A stretch of DNA of 43,988 nucleotides, taken from the NCBI GenBank assembly GCA_026134025.1, contig JAOQII010000009.1, positions 1 through 43,988 on the forward strand, in the 5' to 3' direction. Position 1 is the first letter of the stretch, and every line of letters begins with the position of its first letter. Source of the DNA: Candidatus Syntropharchaeum sp. (GTDB taxonomy: Archaea > Halobacteriota > Syntropharchaeia > Syntropharchaeales > Syntropharchaeaceae). The position numbers and the translations under genes were made by a program. A model generated the notes under the pieces. That model did no database searches. It worked only from the letters and a program-made list of their open reading frames with translations, and was not told the DNA's origin. This document shows, piece after piece, positions 1 through 25,459 of this stretch.

Positions 1-248
1 CCTACACGGAGAGGTTTATTGATGACAGGCACTTTTCGCGGGCGTATCTCAACGCCGCCGATGAGCTTCACGCCTGGCATTGCTCTGAGTTCGTCGATGA
101 AGGTGTGGTCGATGCTTATGATGAATGCGCCTCTGGTTGCTGCAAGCTCGATTCTGCCGCCGCGGTCAACCACTGCTCGTGTGAACGCCTCAACCTTTTT
201 TGGTGTGAGAGGCTCGTTCAGCCAGACGATAGATGTTTCAAGGCTCAT
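1..248 (-). CDS. Unrecognised protein, N-terminal part (runs off left edge)
   Basis: The frame opens with ATG at 246-248, inside the stop of the upstream PASTA gene (ATGA overlap), and stays open to the window edge for 82 residues. The protein begins MSLETSIVWLNEPLTPKK. The order of hydrophobic and polar stretches suggests a small beta-alpha-beta-beta-alpha-beta unit, broadly like subtilase-propeptide/ferredoxin-like folds, but that is only a guess from pattern. No signal peptide or membrane segment is visible. The overlap implies translational coupling with the three genes before it, so it is probably the fourth member of that operon. Function unknown; the C-terminal part is outside the window. 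Confidence 0.6.
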   Translation of the reverse strand, partial: MSLETSIVWLNEPLTPKKVEAFTRAVVDRGGRIELAATRGAFIISIDHTFIDELRAMPGVKLIGGVEIRPRKVPVINKPLRV

Positions 249-1126
249 TTTACAACTTTCAGATCTCTGCTGATCCGTCTCTTTGGATATATCTGATGTT
301 TCTTATATCGAGAGATATTTCTTCTTCTTTTTGCCGAGATCACGAGATCTATCGTGGATCCAGCCTCAATCTCTTTACCGGCCTCGATGCTCTGGCTTAT
401 CACGGTCCCGGGTGGTGATTCGCTCTTTTCTTCTGTCACCCTGCCTTTTTCCAGGCTAACTGATTTTAAGAGTTTTTCTGCATCATCGAGTGGGATTCCG
501 ATGAGGTTCGGGACCTTTGTCAGCTTTAGAGCGAGTTCTGAAACCGTTATGTCAACAGGACTTTCTGGGGGTGCGAGTGAGAGCGGAGATGGGATCTGGG
601 AGAGAACAGTGCCTGGCTCGACCTGGTCATTTCTTCTGTAGCTGATTTCACCAACCGTGAAATTCCTCGATGTTATCTGTTGCTTTGCTGCATCGAGTGT
701 GAGACCTATGAGGTTCGGGACCTCGTCATAGCCAAAGACCTCTTCACCGGATACTTCCTCTCTTGGGAGCATCTTTATCCTGAATCGGATCGTGCTCAGG
801 TTTTCAGGGGGCAGGGTGTCATCGAGCTTTGGAAGCTGGTAGGCTATCTCGTTCTTATCCTCGTTGAATGTTACATTTGCCTTCAGCTCAACCTCCATAT
901 CACTGACAAGATACTTGACACGCGTGCGCTTCTCTGAGAGCGTGGCCTGCATCTTCTCAAGTGCATCTCCAAAGCTTGAAACGAGGCGATCTGGTGGGAT
1001 CTTTGGGCGTTCAAGTTGAAGTCTTTTTATCTGGGTTTTAAGCTCGCTAATCTCTGCTTCCTTTGCGGTGAAATCCCTGTGAAGCTGTTCATATTTTTTC
1101 CTGTAGTCCTCTGCCATCCTAACCAC
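245..1126 (-). CDS. Cytoplasmic coiled-coil protein with two PASTA domains
   Basis: The 293-residue protein has four parts. Residues 5-40 are a charged coiled coil. Residues 70-120 are a strand-rich module containing MEVELKANVTF. Residues 135-197 and 204-266 are two PASTA repeats, each starting VPNLIG and holding the P-G-T-V turn (PGTVLSQ, PGTVISQ). The tail is very basic (KRRRN onward). PASTA domains normally sit outside the cell on Ser/Thr kinases and penicillin-binding proteins. This protein has no signal peptide, membrane helix, kinase or transpeptidase domain, which is unusual. The start is GTG at 1126, with an alternative ATG at 1117. It lies 1 base after the upstream gene and overlaps the downstream gene by 4 bases, so it belongs to one operon. 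The domain call is firm; the function is unknown. Confidence 0.8.
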   Translation of the reverse strand: MVRMAEDYRKKYEQLHRDFTAKEAEISELKTQIKRLQLERPKIPPDRLVSSFGDALEKMQATLSEKRTRVKYLVSDMEVELKANVTFNEDKNEIAYQLPKLDDTLPPENLSTIRFRIKMLPREEVSGEEVFGYDEVPNLIGLTLDAAKQQITSRNFTVGEISYRRNDQVEPGTVLSQIPSPLSLAPPESPVDITVSELALKLTKVPNLIGIPLDDAEKLLKSVSLEKGRVTEEKSESPPGTVISQSIEAGKEIEAGSTIDLVISAKRRRNISRYKKHQIYPKRRISRDLKVVK

Positions 1127-1127
1127 G

Positions 1128-1544
1128 TCATTCTTCCTTAGTCTTTGATGCAGGCGGTATTGAGACGATCTTTGCCGTTATCTGGCTTGAACCTCTGACA
1201 TCATAGTTGTAGGTGTTCTTGTAAGCCGCATTTATCGGTGCCGATAATAGGGTCGGTCTGTATCCTCGCACCTTCCCTTTTTTATCAACCTCTGCCTCTG
1301 CCTTCATTGAGAGTGCCATCTTGAGTTCAAGATTGACCTCGGGAAAGTGATACCATGGCGCCTCTATATCGTACTCAAGCTCGCCACTCTTAACTGCAAG
1401 ATCGATCGCCTTCTGTGTTGCAATCGAGTTCTCATCAAGTGCATGCTGCGCCTCTGCAAGTGAGATCCCAACAGACCTGAGGATACTGCCAAGTGGAGCT
1501 ACAAGCGCCTCAACGATCACCTTCTTCTCGTCCTTATCTACCAT
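1128..1544 (-). CDS. Unrecognised 138-residue protein, paralogue of the 1580-2209 product
   Basis: No known function recognised. Residues 13-50 form an amphipathic helical region (SVGISLAEAQHALDENSI) that closely parallels the next gene upstream (EMALAIAESQQALDMNSI). A strand segment FPEVNLELKMALSM follows, shared in outline with both neighbours, and then a polar tail. There is no signal peptide or membrane helix. The layout loosely resembles the small DUF2589-type proteins, but I cannot confirm that. It follows the upstream gene after about 35 bases and precedes the PASTA gene by 1 base. Co-expression and shared motifs suggest the products assemble together. Confidence 0.7.
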   Translation of the reverse strand: MVDKDEKKVIVEALVAPLGSILRSVGISLAEAQHALDENSIATQKAIDLAVKSGELEYDIEAPWYHFPEVNLELKMALSMKAEAEVDKKGKVRGYRPTLLSAPINAAYKNTYNYDVRGSSQITAKIVSIPPASKTKEE

Positions 1545-1579
1545 AGATCCCGCTCCTCAGGGATGTAAAAAAGGGGTGA

Positions 1580-2209
1580 TTACGAAGGTGGTGAACTCGA
1601 AGCTTCCTGTATCTTGATCGTTGGCACAGCCCGATCTGGTGGAGGCACTGGCTTCAAGGTCGTCCTGAGCAGGCTCGTTCCTGTCTCAGAGAACGTGTAC
1701 TTGGATTTGTACTTTGCATTAAAGGTTGAAGCATATGCAACCGTGGTCTCTGACTTGAGCTTGGCAGAAGCCTTTCCAAATAAGAAACTTGCCAGACCAC
1801 TCGATTTGAAACTGCTCTCAAACGTGGTTTTATTCTTGAACTTGAACTCCTTTTTATACTCTTTCTCGGTTGATCGCTCAATTTTCATCGATATTGTCAT
1901 CTTAACCTCGATGATCGACTCTGTGAACTCATAAAATCGTGGCTGGAGCCCATATGTCAACAGGTTCATCGGGTCATCATTTCTCACAAGCGTGGGCGAC
2001 CCGGTGGGATTTCCATCCTCATCAACAGGTTGCTCGATCGCAAGAATAACACTACCAGCCGGTAGTTCTGTCTCGGCAAGTGCCTGTGCAACCTCAATCG
2101 AGTTCATATCCAGTGCTTGCTGGCTCTCTGCGATAGCAAGCGCCATCTCCTTTATCATCTCGCCAAATGGAACATTCAGCAACTCCTGTCCAACACTCAT
2201 ACTTATCAT
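1580..2209 (-). CDS. Unrecognised 209-residue protein, first gene of the PASTA operon
   Basis: No known function recognised. After a short N-terminus comes a helical segment (AIAESQQALDMNSIEVAQAL), then a Pro/Gly-rich loop, the strand motif ESIIEVKMTISM, a Lys/Thr/Ser-rich beta-type region (residues 115-180) and a Pro-rich end. It shares the helix and the strand motif with the 138-residue product downstream, so the two look like duplicated members of one family. Two starts are possible: ATG at 2209, and ATG at 2200, which is better spaced from the AGAGG-type ribosome site. It has no signal peptide or membrane segment. A TATA-like box lies about 45 bases upstream, making this the operon's first gene. 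Confidence 0.7.
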   Translation of the reverse strand: MISMSVGQELLNVPFGEMIKEMALAIAESQQALDMNSIEVAQALAETELPAGSVILAIEQPVDEDGNPTGSPTLVRNDDPMNLLTYGLQPRFYEFTESIIEVKMTISMKIERSTEKEYKKEFKFKNKTTFESSFKSSGLASFLFGKASAKLKSETTVAYASTFNAKYKSKYTFSETGTSLLRTTLKPVPPPDRAVPTIKIQEASSSPPS

Positions 2210-2245
2210 CCTCTAATAATGACGTGTGTCGGTTAACTTGCAAAC

Positions 2246-2256
2246 TACTTAAAGAT
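2246..2256 (-). promoter_or_regulatory. TATA-like promoter of the PASTA operon
   Basis: On the minus strand the box reads CTTTAAGTAG. Transcription would start about 25 bases downstream (near 2225), leaving a short leader that contains AGAGG before the ATG at 2200. Inferred from spacing only. Confidence 0.4.
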
Positions 2257-2259
2257 TCC

Positions 2260-2496
2260 TCTCGATTGTATGTTGCAAATCTGCTGGATAATAGCACAAT
2301 TTAATGCGAAACTGTTGTAGATTTTTTAACCATCTCACATCAGGGGTTGGACGTACCGGGGCACATTTCCCCATGGGGCTGGAATATGAGTTTACAGGCA
2401 TATATGTGGTAACCCATGTCCGGCCGAGGTTTACGCCGAGAAGGGTGACCTCCTTGAGAAGAGCCCCTATTTTGAAGTGATCGCAGAATACAGAGT
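2260..2496. other. Non-coding stretch of unclear nature
   Basis: This gap between arcS and the PASTA operon is more G+C-rich than other spacers. It contains a CCCCATGGGG palindrome near 2370. On the minus strand one frame stays open across it and into the end of arcS, but there is no ribosome site and no recognisable protein. It could be decayed coding sequence or a structured RNA leader for the operon. I could not assign it. Confidence 0.3.
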
Positions 2497-4562: not shown

Positions 4563-5137
4563 TTAGATTCCTCCTATAAGTTGTGATGTAACAAACGCCT
4601 CGATAAGCGCTGCAATAAAAAGCATCGGCAGAATAACCCATAAAAAGATCCCGAGCGCGTCTATGAACTCAGATTTTATATCAAAATGCGCTTTTCTAAA
4701 TATTGTTTGTGAGATGATATCCCCGAGTCTCAAACCCACTGCTGCTGCCAGGAGAATTGCAGGAATCTCGATGATACCATGCGGCATAAGCCCAAGCATA
4801 ACAGTGCCCCAGCCCACCGACTCTTTCATGAGGTAGACAGCAAGCCCGATGAAGATGCCGTTGTATGCGAGAAAGAGTGCGGGTATCAGACCAAAACCCA
4901 CGCCTAAAATCAGGATAATGAAGCTTTTTATCGAGTTATTTATGAATATGAGAAGGAAGATCTCGATCGAGGTTGCGTTCTGTAGCCATTCAAGGATGGG
5001 ACCCCATTCAGCGAATACACCCTCCAGACTTTCAGGAAAAAGCGCACCATAGATATACCCTGCAATGATCGATAGAAGAAAGATGAGCAGGGCAATTCCA
5101 AAATGCTTCTTTATACTCTTAAGCTCTATAAAATCAC
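4563..5137 (-). CDS. SpoIIM-family integral membrane protein, start region out of frame
   Basis: The open frame predicts about 190 residues with several membrane helices and the stage II sporulation M pattern: GIALLIFLLSIIAGYIYG near the N-terminus, then INNSIKSF, FLAYNGIFIG and LMPHGIIEIP. Archaeal members are membrane proteins of unknown function. The conserved frame reaches back to about 5135 with no in-frame ATG, GTG or TTG before 4901, which is already inside the second helix. A GTG at 5137-5135 overlaps the top6B stop exactly as expected for coupling, but it is out of frame. One extra T in the T run at 5130-5133 would join it to the frame. So this is either a sequence error, a recent frameshift, or an unusual start. 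Coordinates use that GTG. Confidence 0.75.
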
Positions 5138-6954
5138 CCCATAATACTTATCACATCATCGACTCCTTCCACTATTACCGCTCGATCGATATAATCACTG
5201 CATTTATATCTTAAAACTGTTCCCTCCCGCGCACCCAGGTGGATCTTCCATAGAAGATCGTACTCACTCCCGAGTTCAACAACTGTTGGATCATGATCTG
5301 CCTCCACGGGCTTCGATGCGGTAAGATCGTGGATCCTGAAGTCCAGCACCTGATCTGTGAAGTTTGTAACCTCTATCGTAACGATTGTATCATGATCATC
5401 CACGAGCACAGCTTTCTTTACGAGGAGCTTGTTCATTATCTTTGCGATGACGGGTTGAATATCAGGCTCATCCTCCCCGAGTATCGATGCGATCCTGGCT
5501 GATATGAGGGGTAGCAGTCTTGCAATTACCATCTCCTTCTCTCGCCTCTTCTTGAGCGTGGCTTCTTTTGAGAGAAAAGCTTTAAGTGATCGCCCAAGAT
5601 CCTTCAACGCAAGAGTGATCTCGCCTGCAATAACAGGTATATCCGCTATCGCATCTTTTGATTCTGAGGTAAAGGGGATGTTCGTCGATGCAACGTGCAC
5701 CATAATAAGGAGGGGTGCAACAGGAAAACCACCAGATACCTGTTTTATCCCGTACCTCTTCCAGTCAACCTGTTCTACAGAATGCGTGATCACACACCCA
5801 CCCTGCTGGTAGAGTAGTGGGACACGATTGGCATATCGAAGAATCTTTACACGGTCGTCTGATGAAAGCTCTCCCCCATAGCAGAGTGCAACCTCAACGA
5901 TGAAAGGATCTCCAGCATGAACAGCAGGCTTTCTCGTTACCGTTTTTATAAAATCAACCTTATACTCCTTCTTGATTCCCTTAACGATCAGATCATTTCC
6001 GAGCGGTGAGAGACAATCAGGCGTGGGTGCGATGAGTTTTACTGATCTGAACGCATCAAGCAGACGCGTTGCATCATCGTGAGATAATCTTTGTGGTTTT
6101 TTCCCTCCAGAAAGTCCTGCGTTCTCAAGGATTGTATCTGCAGTCTTCTTTCCAATCCTTGAAAACTCATTTTTGAGGAAGGATTCAAGATCTTTCTCTG
6201 CAGTCATGCCGAGCATCCGCATCAGAACCCCGATCTGTACACCATCTGGATGAGGCTTCGTATCTACCGGCTTTGGTGGTGGCGTGCTCACACCTCGCTC
6301 AAAGTGTATCTGGGTACCATCAGGTTCTACGAGGTGCAGTCTTGCGTGTGGATTTACAATCGCCGTCTCTTTCAGGTATTCAAAGACTGATCGCCGTTTA
6401 TCCCTTATGTATGCCCCCTCGATCTCGAGTTCAACTCGCGTGCCATGCGGTCTATCCCACTCGATCTTTGATGACTTGATGATCGCAGGTTCGTTTCTCA
6501 GTGTATCGATCATGAGTTCGAAGTAGCTCGCATCATCAGCTATACCTCTTCTCGAGATCACATTTATCGGCTTACCTGTTGTTATCTGGGCATAAAGAAC
6601 CGCTGCAGAGATCCCTATCCCCTGCTGCCCCCTGCTCTGTTTTATCGCATGAAAGCGTGAACCATAGAGGAGTTTTGCGAATACGCGTGGAAGAGATGCC
6701 TCTTCAATCCCCGGGCCATTATCCTCGACGCTTATCCGGTATCTTGTCTTACCAACCTTCTTAATTACAACAAAGATATCTGGAAGGATCTCAGCCTCCT
6801 CGCACGCATCAAGCGCGTTATCAACCGCTTCTTTGACACAGGTCAGGAGACTACGTGTTTTTGAGTCAAACCCAAGGATCTGCCTGTTCTTCTCAAAGAA
6901 CTCGGCTATGCTGATTGAACGGTGTTTCTCCGCACTATCCTGAGCTTTACTCAT
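5134..6954 (-). CDS. top6B: DNA topoisomerase VI subunit B
   Basis: The ATPase subunit of the type IIB topoisomerase, which dimerises on ATP binding to drive strand passage by the Top6A cleavage subunit. At 606 residues it is full length. The GHKL ATPase signatures are present: N box with E42 and N46 (EAVDNALDA), DNGPG at 78-82, and GQQGIG at 109-114. A helix-two-turn-helix region and the transducer domain follow, then a C-terminal extension of about 100 residues with an immunoglobulin-like pattern. It overlaps hef by 8 bases at its start and the SpoIIM-like gene at its end. The usual partner top6A is not in this window. Assignment secure. Confidence 0.96.
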   Translation of the reverse strand: MSKAQDSAEKHRSISIAEFFEKNRQILGFDSKTRSLLTCVKEAVDNALDACEEAEILPDIFVVIKKVGKTRYRISVEDNGPGIEEASLPRVFAKLLYGSRFHAIKQSRGQQGIGISAAVLYAQITTGKPINVISRRGIADDASYFELMIDTLRNEPAIIKSSKIEWDRPHGTRVELEIEGAYIRDKRRSVFEYLKETAIVNPHARLHLVEPDGTQIHFERGVSTPPPKPVDTKPHPDGVQIGVLMRMLGMTAEKDLESFLKNEFSRIGKKTADTILENAGLSGGKKPQRLSHDDATRLLDAFRSVKLIAPTPDCLSPLGNDLIVKGIKKEYKVDFIKTVTRKPAVHAGDPFIVEVALCYGGELSSDDRVKILRYANRVPLLYQQGGCVITHSVEQVDWKRYGIKQVSGGFPVAPLLIMVHVASTNIPFTSESKDAIADIPVIAGEITLALKDLGRSLKAFLSKEATLKKRREKEMVIARLLPLISARIASILGEDEPDIQPVIAKIMNKLLVKKAVLVDDHDTIVTIEVTNFTDQVLDFRIHDLTASKPVEADHDPTVVELGSEYDLLWKIHLGAREGTVLRYKCSDYIDRAVIVEGVDDVISIMG

Positions 6955-22578: not shown

Positions 22579-23328
22579 TTATCTCACCCAAAGCCAGGGA
22601 ATATGCAACCCCACCGCAAGTACTATAATCAGCAAAGACTTTACCCAATCTATCCTCTGCATTTTAAACTCACCACCACCCCTTAAAACGCCATCATACC
22701 CACGCGAGATCATTGCATTATATACCCGCTCTGCCCGCTCGTAGCTCTTCACAAACAACATCCCTATCGCTTTACCCAGTGTTTTTATCGTATATATTCT
22801 TGTTTTAAGCTCGAAACAACGTGATTCAATTGACCTTACTATCCGCTGAAATTCCTCGAAAAAGACAAAGATGTACCTGAATGTGAAGACAAGCATCTGA
22901 ACAAGTTTATTTGGAACTTTGAGATCGATAAGGGCTTTTAAAGTAACATCAAACCTTGCGGTCCCGACCATTGGAAATATCAGTATGACGGCAGACAACG
23001 CCTTGAGTGTGATCAGCGAGCCATACCACAGCCCATAAGGGTCTATCCCTATCCTGCCATCTGTAATCTCAAGCGGGAGGATGAAAAGAAACGGTGATAC
23101 AAAGAGAAACACCCATTTGATATGCGTTAACACAAACCTGACTGGAATCCGCGATAGAAGAAGGATTACAATCGCTGCTAATAACCCCATGACCGCCATC
23201 CTGAGATCATAAACGAGAACGATCGAGAATATGAGTGTGAGAATTGATACAAGCTTCGCTCTTGAATCCCAGTTATGTAGTGGTGATCTGAGTGCGTGAT
23301 AGCGATCTATCTCGATATGTCCGATCAT
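22579..23328 (-). CDS. nikQ: Nickel/cobalt ECF transporter transmembrane coupling protein (NikQ/CbiQ)
   Basis: A 249-residue integral membrane protein with about five to six helices. It has the CbiQ-family cytoplasmic coupling helices, including SYERAERVYNAMISRGYDG, whose ARG-type motif contacts the ATPase. It couples ATP hydrolysis by the downstream ATPase to ion release by NikM. It lies 7 bases after the NikL-like gene and 1 base before nikO, so all are in one transcript. The family call is firm; nickel specificity comes from context. Confidence 0.9.
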   Translation of the reverse strand: MIGHIEIDRYHALRSPLHNWDSRAKLVSILTLIFSIVLVYDLRMAVMGLLAAIVILLLSRIPVRFVLTHIKWVFLFVSPFLFILPLEITDGRIGIDPYGLWYGSLITLKALSAVILIFPMVGTARFDVTLKALIDLKVPNKLVQMLVFTFRYIFVFFEEFQRIVRSIESRCFELKTRIYTIKTLGKAIGMLFVKSYERAERVYNAMISRGYDGVLRGGGEFKMQRIDWVKSLLIIVLAVGLHIPWLWVR

Positions 23329-23335
23329 CTATTTC

Positions 23336-23770
23336 CTATTCTCGGGCTTTCTTAAAACTCTTATACCACAGCGAAAGCCCCAGGATTCCAAGAAGATAAC
23401 CTAAACCTGCAAAGACCCTCAGGTAAAGCGGCATCTCACCCCCCTTATCGCTCCTTCCTCCAGCAGCCGCTGTCATATTGATCGTCACCTCTCCTCTGTG
23501 TCCTGTTGATTCAACGACAACATCGAATTCCTTCTCAAATCCTGGATCGAAACTGAATTTGCCTTCATCATCTGTTTTACCCTCTACATAGAGCCTTCCA
23601 TCAGGAGTGTATATCTTAACGTCTCCATCGCGAAGAGGTTCACCCCCGCCATAGTATGCCTCAATATAGATTGACTTGATTCCATAATCAACGATGACCC
23701 TGTGTGCCGATACAGTCGGGCTTACCACCGCCATCAAAAGGATTATCATCATTAGAGTTCTTATTTTCAT
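23336..23770 (-). CDS. nikL: NikL-like membrane-anchored accessory subunit of the nickel transporter
   Basis: A 144-residue protein with a signal peptide (MMIILLMAVVSPTVSA), a small extracytoplasmic beta domain containing YTPDGRLYVEGKTDDEGKFSF, and a C-terminal membrane helix ending KSFKKARE. Together with NikK, such subunits replace CbiN in many archaeal and deltaproteobacterial nickel ECF systems. It overlaps nikM by 4 bases (ATGA) and precedes nikQ by 7 bases. The name rests on position, topology and the carboxypeptidase-regulatory-like beta pattern. Confidence 0.7.
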   Translation of the reverse strand: MKIRTLMMIILLMAVVSPTVSAHRVIVDYGIKSIYIEAYYGGGEPLRDGDVKIYTPDGRLYVEGKTDDEGKFSFDPGFEKEFDVVVESTGHRGEVTINMTAAAGGRSDKGGEMPLYLRVFAGLGYLLGILGLSLWYKSFKKARE

Positions 23771-24375
23771 CTGATACCCTCCAGAATCTCTGGTTTAACC
23801 TTTGCGAGGAAACCTGCAAGTGCACCTGTAAATACCGCCTCTATCACAATCACAGGGATATGCGCTACTGCAACAAATACTGTCACGGTCTCAAACGCCT
23901 CCCCCAGCGAGAGAAGCTCGATTGAGAGCAGGAGTACTGCACCTGCGACTCCAATCCCCCCGGCAATTGCCCCAAAGATTGTTTCCTTATTTTTCAGATC
24001 GAACTTCATCCCATATCTGAAGATACCTGCAGCAAGTAGTGCCGGAACCCCCATATTTATCGCATTGATACCGATCGTTGTGATTCCACCGTGCTGAAAA
24101 AGAACCGCCTGGAGGATCAGTGCGATAAAGATCGCAGGGTATGCGAATATACCAAGCATAACCCCTGCAAAGCCGTTCAATACCAGATGGACACTTGTTG
24201 GACCCACGGGAAAATGGATGAGTGATGCCACAAAGACCGCTGCCGTAACAACAGAGAGCTTTGGAACATCCTCAACCCGCATCTTTGTGAGTGTCCATAC
24301 AATGATAAGCCCGGTTATGATGAATCCACTGATCCAGACCTGGGGTTGAAGAACCCCATCTGATATATGAACCAT
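23767..24375 (-). CDS. nikM: Nickel/cobalt ECF transporter substrate-binding membrane protein (NikM/CbiM)
   Basis: The ion-binding S component: 202 residues, about six helices. The conserved start in this family is Met-His-Ile with the amino terminus and His2 holding the metal. Here it is MVHISDGVL, one residue longer. If the initiator Met is removed, as expected before Val, the mature chain is Val-His-Ile, restoring His at position 2. The conserved internal His pattern is present (LIHFPVGPTSVHLVLNG). It follows nikK by 9 bases. Confidence 0.9.
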   Translation of the reverse strand: MVHISDGVLQPQVWISGFIITGLIIVWTLTKMRVEDVPKLSVVTAAVFVASLIHFPVGPTSVHLVLNGFAGVMLGIFAYPAIFIALILQAVLFQHGGITTIGINAINMGVPALLAAGIFRYGMKFDLKNKETIFGAIAGGIGVAGAVLLLSIELLSLGEAFETVTVFVAVAHIPVIVIEAVFTGALAGFLAKVKPEILEGIR

Positions 24376-24384
24376 CTCTTCTCT

Positions 24385-25353
24385 CTATCTTCTCCGCCTC
24401 AATAGAATCGTCAGAGCTCCGAGAATCCCGATTGTTGCAAGTATACCGACTGACGGAGATTCAGGTGTTTTATCTGACATGCCTGAAACAACCTCTTCGA
24501 GTTGAGAAACTCTTCCCTCAAGATCCTCAAGCCCTGAGGTGCCAGTTTCTTCTGCTGGTGGGAATGATTCAAATACAGGAACAACGATGACACCTCGCTC
24601 TTCCATTTCGTCTCCCTCTGCATAGACCCCAACAAACCAGATTCCAGGCTCATCGAGCGTATATGCAAAGTCTCCATCGCTGTCTGTCGTTGTGACCCTT
24701 GTGTACATCATCGGAGGATCTTCTGCGTATAGATCTTCTGCTGCTGAAACTGCTGCCTCTGCATCAGCCGTCTCGTAATACTTCTCGACCTCAACCGTTG
24801 CACCAGCAAGTGGCGAACCATCGAGGAGCGCTTTTCCTGTGAATACAAACCCTTCTTCAAGCCCGTATGGCCTCGTATATGGCAGAACCTCAACCTTCTC
24901 ACCGAGTAGAGCAGCCCATCCTTCCCAGGCTTCCTCACCGCAATGGATCACAGTTTTTGTATGATCAACAAGTTCATGCTCAGGTACGCTTAAGCTTGCA
25001 TGGACTATATAATCTCCACGTTTCTCGATTCTGAATGATACCTTGTACGCCTTGAACCCTTCGACTGTCGTCTCAACTGGATCCAATTGCGTGATAACCC
25101 CCTCAGGATCTCTCACATAGACCTCTGGTACAACAGGGCAGTCGAAGAGCACATGTTCATAAGGGTGTCCCCATGCGATCAGCACGGTCTCTGTCTCACC
25201 CAGTTCTCCGATATAGTCGGCTGGACTGACATCCATCTTGCCACCTGGAAAGAGCATCGTAAAGTGCGCAGATGCCGATCCAAGCACACAGGTTCCTAAA
25301 GCTATAACAGCCAGAAGTACAACTATCGCATTCATAATAGTACCTAATTTCAT
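24385..25353 (-). CDS. nikK: NikK-like periplasmic/surface protein (DUF4198 type) of the nickel transporter
   Basis: A 322-residue exported protein. It has a signal peptide (cleavage after about residue 29, ahead of HFTMLFPGG) and a DUF4198-type beta domain with conserved histidines. A second carboxypeptidase-regulatory-like module follows (LAGATVEVEKY...DSDGDFAYTL), then a short coiled coil and a C-terminal transmembrane helix ending RRRR. DUF4198 proteins genomically linked to NikM are termed NikK and may present nickel to the transporter. ATG at 25353 has a good ribosome site (GGTGAGG about 8 bases upstream). It is the first gene of the operon, 60 bases behind a strong TATA box. Confidence 0.8.
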   Translation of the reverse strand: MKLGTIMNAIVVLLAVIALGTCVLGSASAHFTMLFPGGKMDVSPADYIGELGETETVLIAWGHPYEHVLFDCPVVPEVYVRDPEGVITQLDPVETTVEGFKAYKVSFRIEKRGDYIVHASLSVPEHELVDHTKTVIHCGEEAWEGWAALLGEKVEVLPYTRPYGLEEGFVFTGKALLDGSPLAGATVEVEKYYETADAEAAVSAAEDLYAEDPPMMYTRVTTTDSDGDFAYTLDEPGIWFVGVYAEGDEMEERGVIVVPVFESFPPAEETGTSGLEDLEGRVSQLEEVVSGMSDKTPESPSVGILATIGILGALTILLRRRR

Positions 25354-25414
25354 ACAACCTCACCTCTTATTTTTAACTTAGCAAACAATTTGTAAAGATA
25401 AGACTATTAGTTAT

Positions 25415-25425
25415 TATTTATAAAG
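25415..25425 (-). promoter_or_regulatory. TATA promoter of the nikKMLQO operon
   Basis: The minus strand reads CTTTATAAATA after an A run, a good archaeal TATA/BRE context. Predicted start is near 25392, giving a leader of about 40 bases with GGTGAGG ahead of the nikK ATG. No NikR palindrome or nickel-cobalt riboswitch was recognised in the surrounding A/T-rich 80 bases. Confidence 0.5.
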
Positions 25426-25459
25426 TTTTTGATATTACTCGATTCTTTAGAGTATTTCT

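Follow-up and report, generated by a model that had tools for sequence, protein, structure and literature searches.

An archaeal operon of tandem paralogues, remotely related to DUF2589 by profile comparison, and a soluble coiled-coil protein with PASTA domains

PASTA domains normally work outside the cell, where they are known for peptidoglycan and are carried by Ser/Thr kinases and penicillin-binding proteins such as PknB, PrkC, and PBP2x. A second family of interest here, DUF2589 (PF11655), is uncharacterised, and a search of the literature returned a single mention of it. The genes of this family usually come as tandem paralogue pairs (9 of 11 archaeal genomes and 7 of 8 bacterial ones), with, in Archaeoglobus-like genomes, a further gene after the pair that encodes a small protein, here called C′. 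In A. fulgidus, the DUF2589-related region AF0414–AF0417 is reported to be up-regulated on lactate (PMC3949148). A third point of comparison is Trypco2 (PF19631; PMC7159879), a family of trypsin-co-occurring adaptors of conflict systems. No study of the operon described below was found in the literature search.

The operon lies in a contig of Candidatus Syntropharchaeum (JAOQII010000009.1; host genome 1.76 Mb), and the window analysed was the full contig from its base 1 (43,988 nucleotides). Four minus-strand genes, named A, B, C, and D, occupy bases 3–2209 at the contig end, with intergenic spacings of 35 (A/B), 1 (B/C), and -4 (C/D) bases. This coupling is exactly as the first-pass annotation had described it, and the helix and strand strings quoted there were recovered in A, B, and C. 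Gene A (1580–2209, 209 aa) encodes a helix with AESQQALDMNSI, followed by strands with IIEVKMTISM; its true start is probably the ATG at 2200, because the homologues begin with MSVGQELL and an AGAGG is found 9 nt upstream of the former. Gene B (1128–1544, 138 aa) encodes a paralogue of A, the helix string shared by both being located at 2096–2131 and 1422–1457, respectively. The shared strand string is found at 1886–1915 in A, 1305–1334 in B, and 866–895 in C. Gene C (245–1126, 293 aa) has a GTG start and encodes, in this order: a long helix that is probably a coiled coil (residues 2–38; 1013–1123), a helix plus three strands (residues 45–118; 773–994) holding EVELKANVTF and LSTIRFRIKMLP, two PASTA domains (536–724, E 1.2e-13, and 335–517, E 3.1e-16), and a basic tail predicted with low confidence. 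Gene D (3–248) is truncated by the contig end after 82 codons and belongs to a conserved protein of 80–94 aa, intact (86 aa) in the GoM-Arc1 archaeon E37. By eye, its residue pattern would suit a ferredoxin-like fold. D gave no meaningful match in Pfam at E<=10, and a resemblance to the pattern of peptidase inhibitor I9, likewise noticed by eye only, is not put forward here. Purifying selection acts on each of the four genes (dN/dS 0.08–0.31 against two close relatives), and no clear transmembrane stretch is present in A–D, the highest 19-residue hydropathy being 1.75 at B residues 9–27.

When Pfam, NCBIfam, and PHROGs were searched, only the PASTA domains of C gave a convincing match; the A/B family has no entry in any of the three. 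That A and B are paralogues, as had been proposed, is borne out by an alignment of 50 members of the family and by the recovery of the ANME-1 A homologue with B as the query (E 3.4e-11). In this alignment the residues P17, Q33, and D37 (B numbering) are invariant. The AlphaFold2 model of B, of moderate confidence (pLDDT 71, pTM 0.54), shows a long helix (residues 18–53) and a four-strand meander; Foldseek found no solved-structure match for it in the PDB (best E 1.1), and the A/B, DUF2589, and D profiles gave nothing significant against the sequences of solved structures. The next matches below the A/B family itself in profile searches are DUF2589 proteins. The two profiles align collinearly over 183 columns (hhalign probability 94.9%, E 4.5e-8), a trimmed comparison gives 2.4e-7 against 0.035 for the reversed control, and a single DUF2589 sequence recovers the ANME-1 A protein at 2e-4. 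Neither A nor B matches PF11655 in Pfam at E<=1, so that the gathering threshold is not reached. On these profile comparisons, the A/B family and DUF2589 are remotely related, with full-length collinear homology and the habit of tandem paralogy in common. The first-pass annotation had named neither this kinship nor two points discussed below, namely the versions found in bacteria and the block's probable recent transfer. The operon provides the uncharacterised DUF2589 with relatives, partners, and domain fusions.

The first-pass annotation had also claimed a strand module common to the first three proteins. Compared directly, A/B and C are only weakly similar (hhalign E 0.011 over 20 columns, which are exactly the strand named there), and the part of the claim that stands is a related helix-plus-strands module in C, convincing only by way of C′. 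This protein, which lacks the coiled coil and the PASTA domains of C, has strands that match the C module, and profile comparison relates it to C (3.9e-5), to DUF2589 (5.4e-4), and to A/B (1.6e-3), with reversed-profile controls of 0.019–0.38. In the AlphaFold2 model of C, a long helix is followed by a helix and strand-meander module and then by the PASTA domains. Searched against 2891 ORFs, the C-module profile matched, outside C, first C′ (0.004) and then, from 0.045 upwards, a run of B proteins. The best decoy scored 0.49, and some decoy matches were also cassette proteins, so that composition contributes to the score. A module common to A/B and C is thus likely from profiles and models. 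A counterpart of D was not recognised in the DUF2589 loci.

The two PASTA domains previously assigned to the third protein are genuine (Pfam E 1.3e-29), and their fold is confirmed by Foldseek (3m9g, E 3.6e-10; single domain 3ouv, rmsd 1.1). The likeness to the PASTA kinases and penicillin-binding proteins ends with these C-terminal domains, since C has no signal peptide, transmembrane segment, kinase domain, or transpeptidase domain, and its PASTA domains sit on a soluble coiled-coil protein. They do not define the system either: C of ANME-1 has none, that of Methanohalarchaeum and of a haloarchaeon-like genome has one, that of the window two, and those found elsewhere three or four, with twelve in a C paralogue of one locus (L059). 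Some C proteins carry, besides PASTA, a helix-hairpin-helix/DUF4332 tail. As the PASTA count varies from 0 to 12 while the core stays, PASTA is an accessory arm, and the core consists of A and B together with the coiled coil and module of C. Archaea, which have none of the peptidoglycan that PASTA is associated with, thus carry PASTA modules on coiled-coil proteins without a signal peptide. The twelve-PASTA paralogue (1324 aa; L059 8550–12524) is encoded immediately upstream of an A-B-C-D operon that is itself intact. The host genome contains a second, sub-threshold PASTA-like match (G000:C34:18178–18291, L003; E 7.5e-4).

With B as the query, eight loci were found among GTDB genomes, in GoM-Arc1, Argoarchaeum, other Methanosarcinales MAGs, an ANME-2 MAG, Methanohalarchaeum, and the bacterium Marinobacterium mangrovicola; the A/B family profile is present in 23 of 295 Halobacteriota genomes. 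Each of the 28 archaeal loci compared, window included, has A, B, and C side by side, with spacings of -41 to 187 bases. D adjoins them in 26 of the 28, lying downstream except in L051 and L063, where it is upstream. The A/B paralogues always number two or three per archaeal locus (three in L050, L054, and L065). The absence of a conserved neighbourhood, which would have spoken against a single system, is therefore not what is observed. That the genes are chance neighbours with a chance resemblance of motifs is suggested by the shortness of the motifs and nothing further; the 28/28 synteny, the profile homology, and the purifying selection rule it out for practical purposes. Since A-B-C is kept in every locus while the flanks vary between lineages, A-B-C-D is an autonomous, portable unit. 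In several Methanosarcina-like genomes it occupies one fixed place (gene names assigned by eye), with the indolepyruvate oxidoreductase genes (iorAB) on one side and a UDP-sugar pyrophosphorylase gene or the ribosomal L3 operon on the other. Four hypothetical genes thereby become one testable system, at a fixed site in a group with genetics. A viral origin of A/B was discarded after no relatives were found in phage or viral contigs; DUF2589 itself appears in viral data in one IMG/VR contig and one unverified 4 kb phage record only.

From the constant co-occurrence, the obligatory paralogy, and the coiled coil, we infer that A-B-C-D may encode one soluble cytoplasmic hetero-oligomeric assembly, a proposal that we favour over the others and to which we give slightly less than an even chance. 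In such an assembly, A and B, like the related module in C, would carry a common unit, consisting of a long helix, one face of which bears an invariant Q and D, and then a strand meander. The paralogues would co-assemble through this unit, as suggested by its presence in two or more copies at every locus. C would join or crosslink the assembly through its N-terminal coiled coil and display PASTA arms of variable length (0–12 copies, sometimes with a helix-hairpin-helix domain) as spacers or ligand-binding arms, while D would be a small accessory subunit. Against this proposal stand the usual extracellular location of PASTA, the weak direct similarity between the A/B and C profiles, and the moderate quality of the B model, which matches no solved structure.

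Bacterial versions of the cassette bear on this proposal and on the alternatives. In Marinobacterium (L018), there are four A-like genes, and an OmpA domain (E 5.2e-6) is encoded by one of them; the locus further holds a C-like gene for a coiled-coil/PASTA protein and a B gene to which PASTA is fused. In favour of the assembly, the fusion and the OmpA domain on an A paralogue tie the modules together. On a Sphaerotilus plasmid (L129 8643–11422), five hypothetical genes in a row encode a D-like protein (E 7.5e-6 against the haloarchaeal/Methanohalarchaeum D profile), two A/B proteins, a short C′-like protein, and a coiled-coil protein, the last two recognised by eye. The A/B family is rare in Pseudomonadota, being found in none of the 398 other genomes of the sample. 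As for the bacterial DUF2589 loci (L130, L131, and L147–L154), six of ten have a same-strand peptidoglycan hydrolase gene nearby, of several types: GH24 lysozyme (two), muramidase PF11860, GH19 (two), and Amidase_3.

One alternative, to which these six loci point, is an envelope- or lysis-related role, in which the proteins would act on or outside the wall without a signal peptide, through lysis or another route, and PASTA/OmpA-type modules would bind wall or glycan, as the combination of both domains in the bacterial cassette may also suggest. This is rather unlikely in our judgement: no peptidoglycan hydrolase gene is found among the archaeal A-B-C-D neighbourhoods listed or in the Sphaerotilus locus, C of ANME-1 has no PASTA, and A–D have no clear transmembrane segment. 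In addition, Methanosarcina-type archaea have no peptidoglycan. Returning to the assembly, a broader proposal, which we regard as tentative and less likely than not, is that the A-B-C-D, Marinobacterium/Sphaerotilus, and DUF2589 cassettes are branches of a single family spanning archaea and bacteria, whose members would be self-assembling machines made of tandem paralogues of one helix-plus-meander unit, with wall-type modules (PASTA, OmpA) added, or wall hydrolases as partners, according to lineage. Were this true, the family would represent an undescribed class of particle.

Three further features of the DUF2589 loci were noticed. Hydrolases of unrelated families recur beside DUF2589 in L130, L131, L148, L149, L150, and L152. 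A conserved uncharacterised protein of about 88 aa is common to L131, L147, L149, and L150. A different three-gene operon, encoding DUF2589, a GDYIG protein, and a third protein (L096 4835–6847, L151 4845–6881, and L154 3285–5415), occurs both in an archaeon and in two members of the Pseudomonadota set.

The patchy distribution of the cassette and its probable transfer would also be expected of a conflict or defence adaptor module akin to Trypco2, and one Marinobacterium cassette protein, with a short helix-plus-strands look by eye, does match that family weakly (E 0.023). Such a role is nevertheless improbable, since A, B, C, and D have no Trypco2 match at E<=1 and no peptidase, MoxR, vWA, or STAND genes, nor other conflict-system partners, were noticed adjoining the operon. 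The Trypco2 profile was found in none of the 197 genomes of the Halobacteriota sample, the host included. PADLOC gave no match to system-specific proteins, only to the PASTA part of the PD-T4-6 kinase models, and the fixed site beside iorAB and the ribosomal protein L3 genes is unlike a defence island.

Regarding its origin, the operon and the region upstream of A (bases 5–2310, minus strand) are 94% identical in DNA to the GoM-Arc1 archaeon E37 (L011 7247–9540). The other close copies are also of GoM-Arc1 type (83%, 81%, and 80% DNA identity over the main stretch), and the ANME-1 copy shows no more than 43% identity in B. The same-genus genome G057 does not have the operon, and shares 72–77% DNA identity with the contig over long stretches between 7 and 26 kb. 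Contamination by the whole contig is excluded by this remainder. The operon has probably been transferred horizontally into the host in recent times, and the simplest reading of the sequence comparisons, because the other close copies are GoM-Arc1-type, is that the source was a lineage of that type. It is important to note that the block begins at contig base 1–5 and that the 94% identity ends at base 2310; along with the lack of the operon in G057, this would fit an assembly chimera with a GoM-Arc1 relative, in which case the operon would not belong to the host genome, whatever its function. A chimera seems unlikely to us, as the identity to the closest relative compared is 94% and not 100%, the G+C content does not set the block apart (0.479 versus 0.464 ± 0.013), and beyond the block the contig truly belongs to the genus; even if real, it leaves the nature of the operon itself unaffected. 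A few kb beyond the probably transferred block, topoisomerase VI subunit B (5134–6954) shows no more than 54% protein identity to E37, and it has no convincing match in G057 or in the sampled ANME-1-family genomes. Further along, an ECF-type cobalt/nickel transport cassette (22599–25439; cbiM/cbiQ/cbiO-like ORFs, by eye) shows 97% DNA identity with G057, as opposed to 72–77% for the stretches beside it, and this difference points to a probable second recent exchange on the contig.
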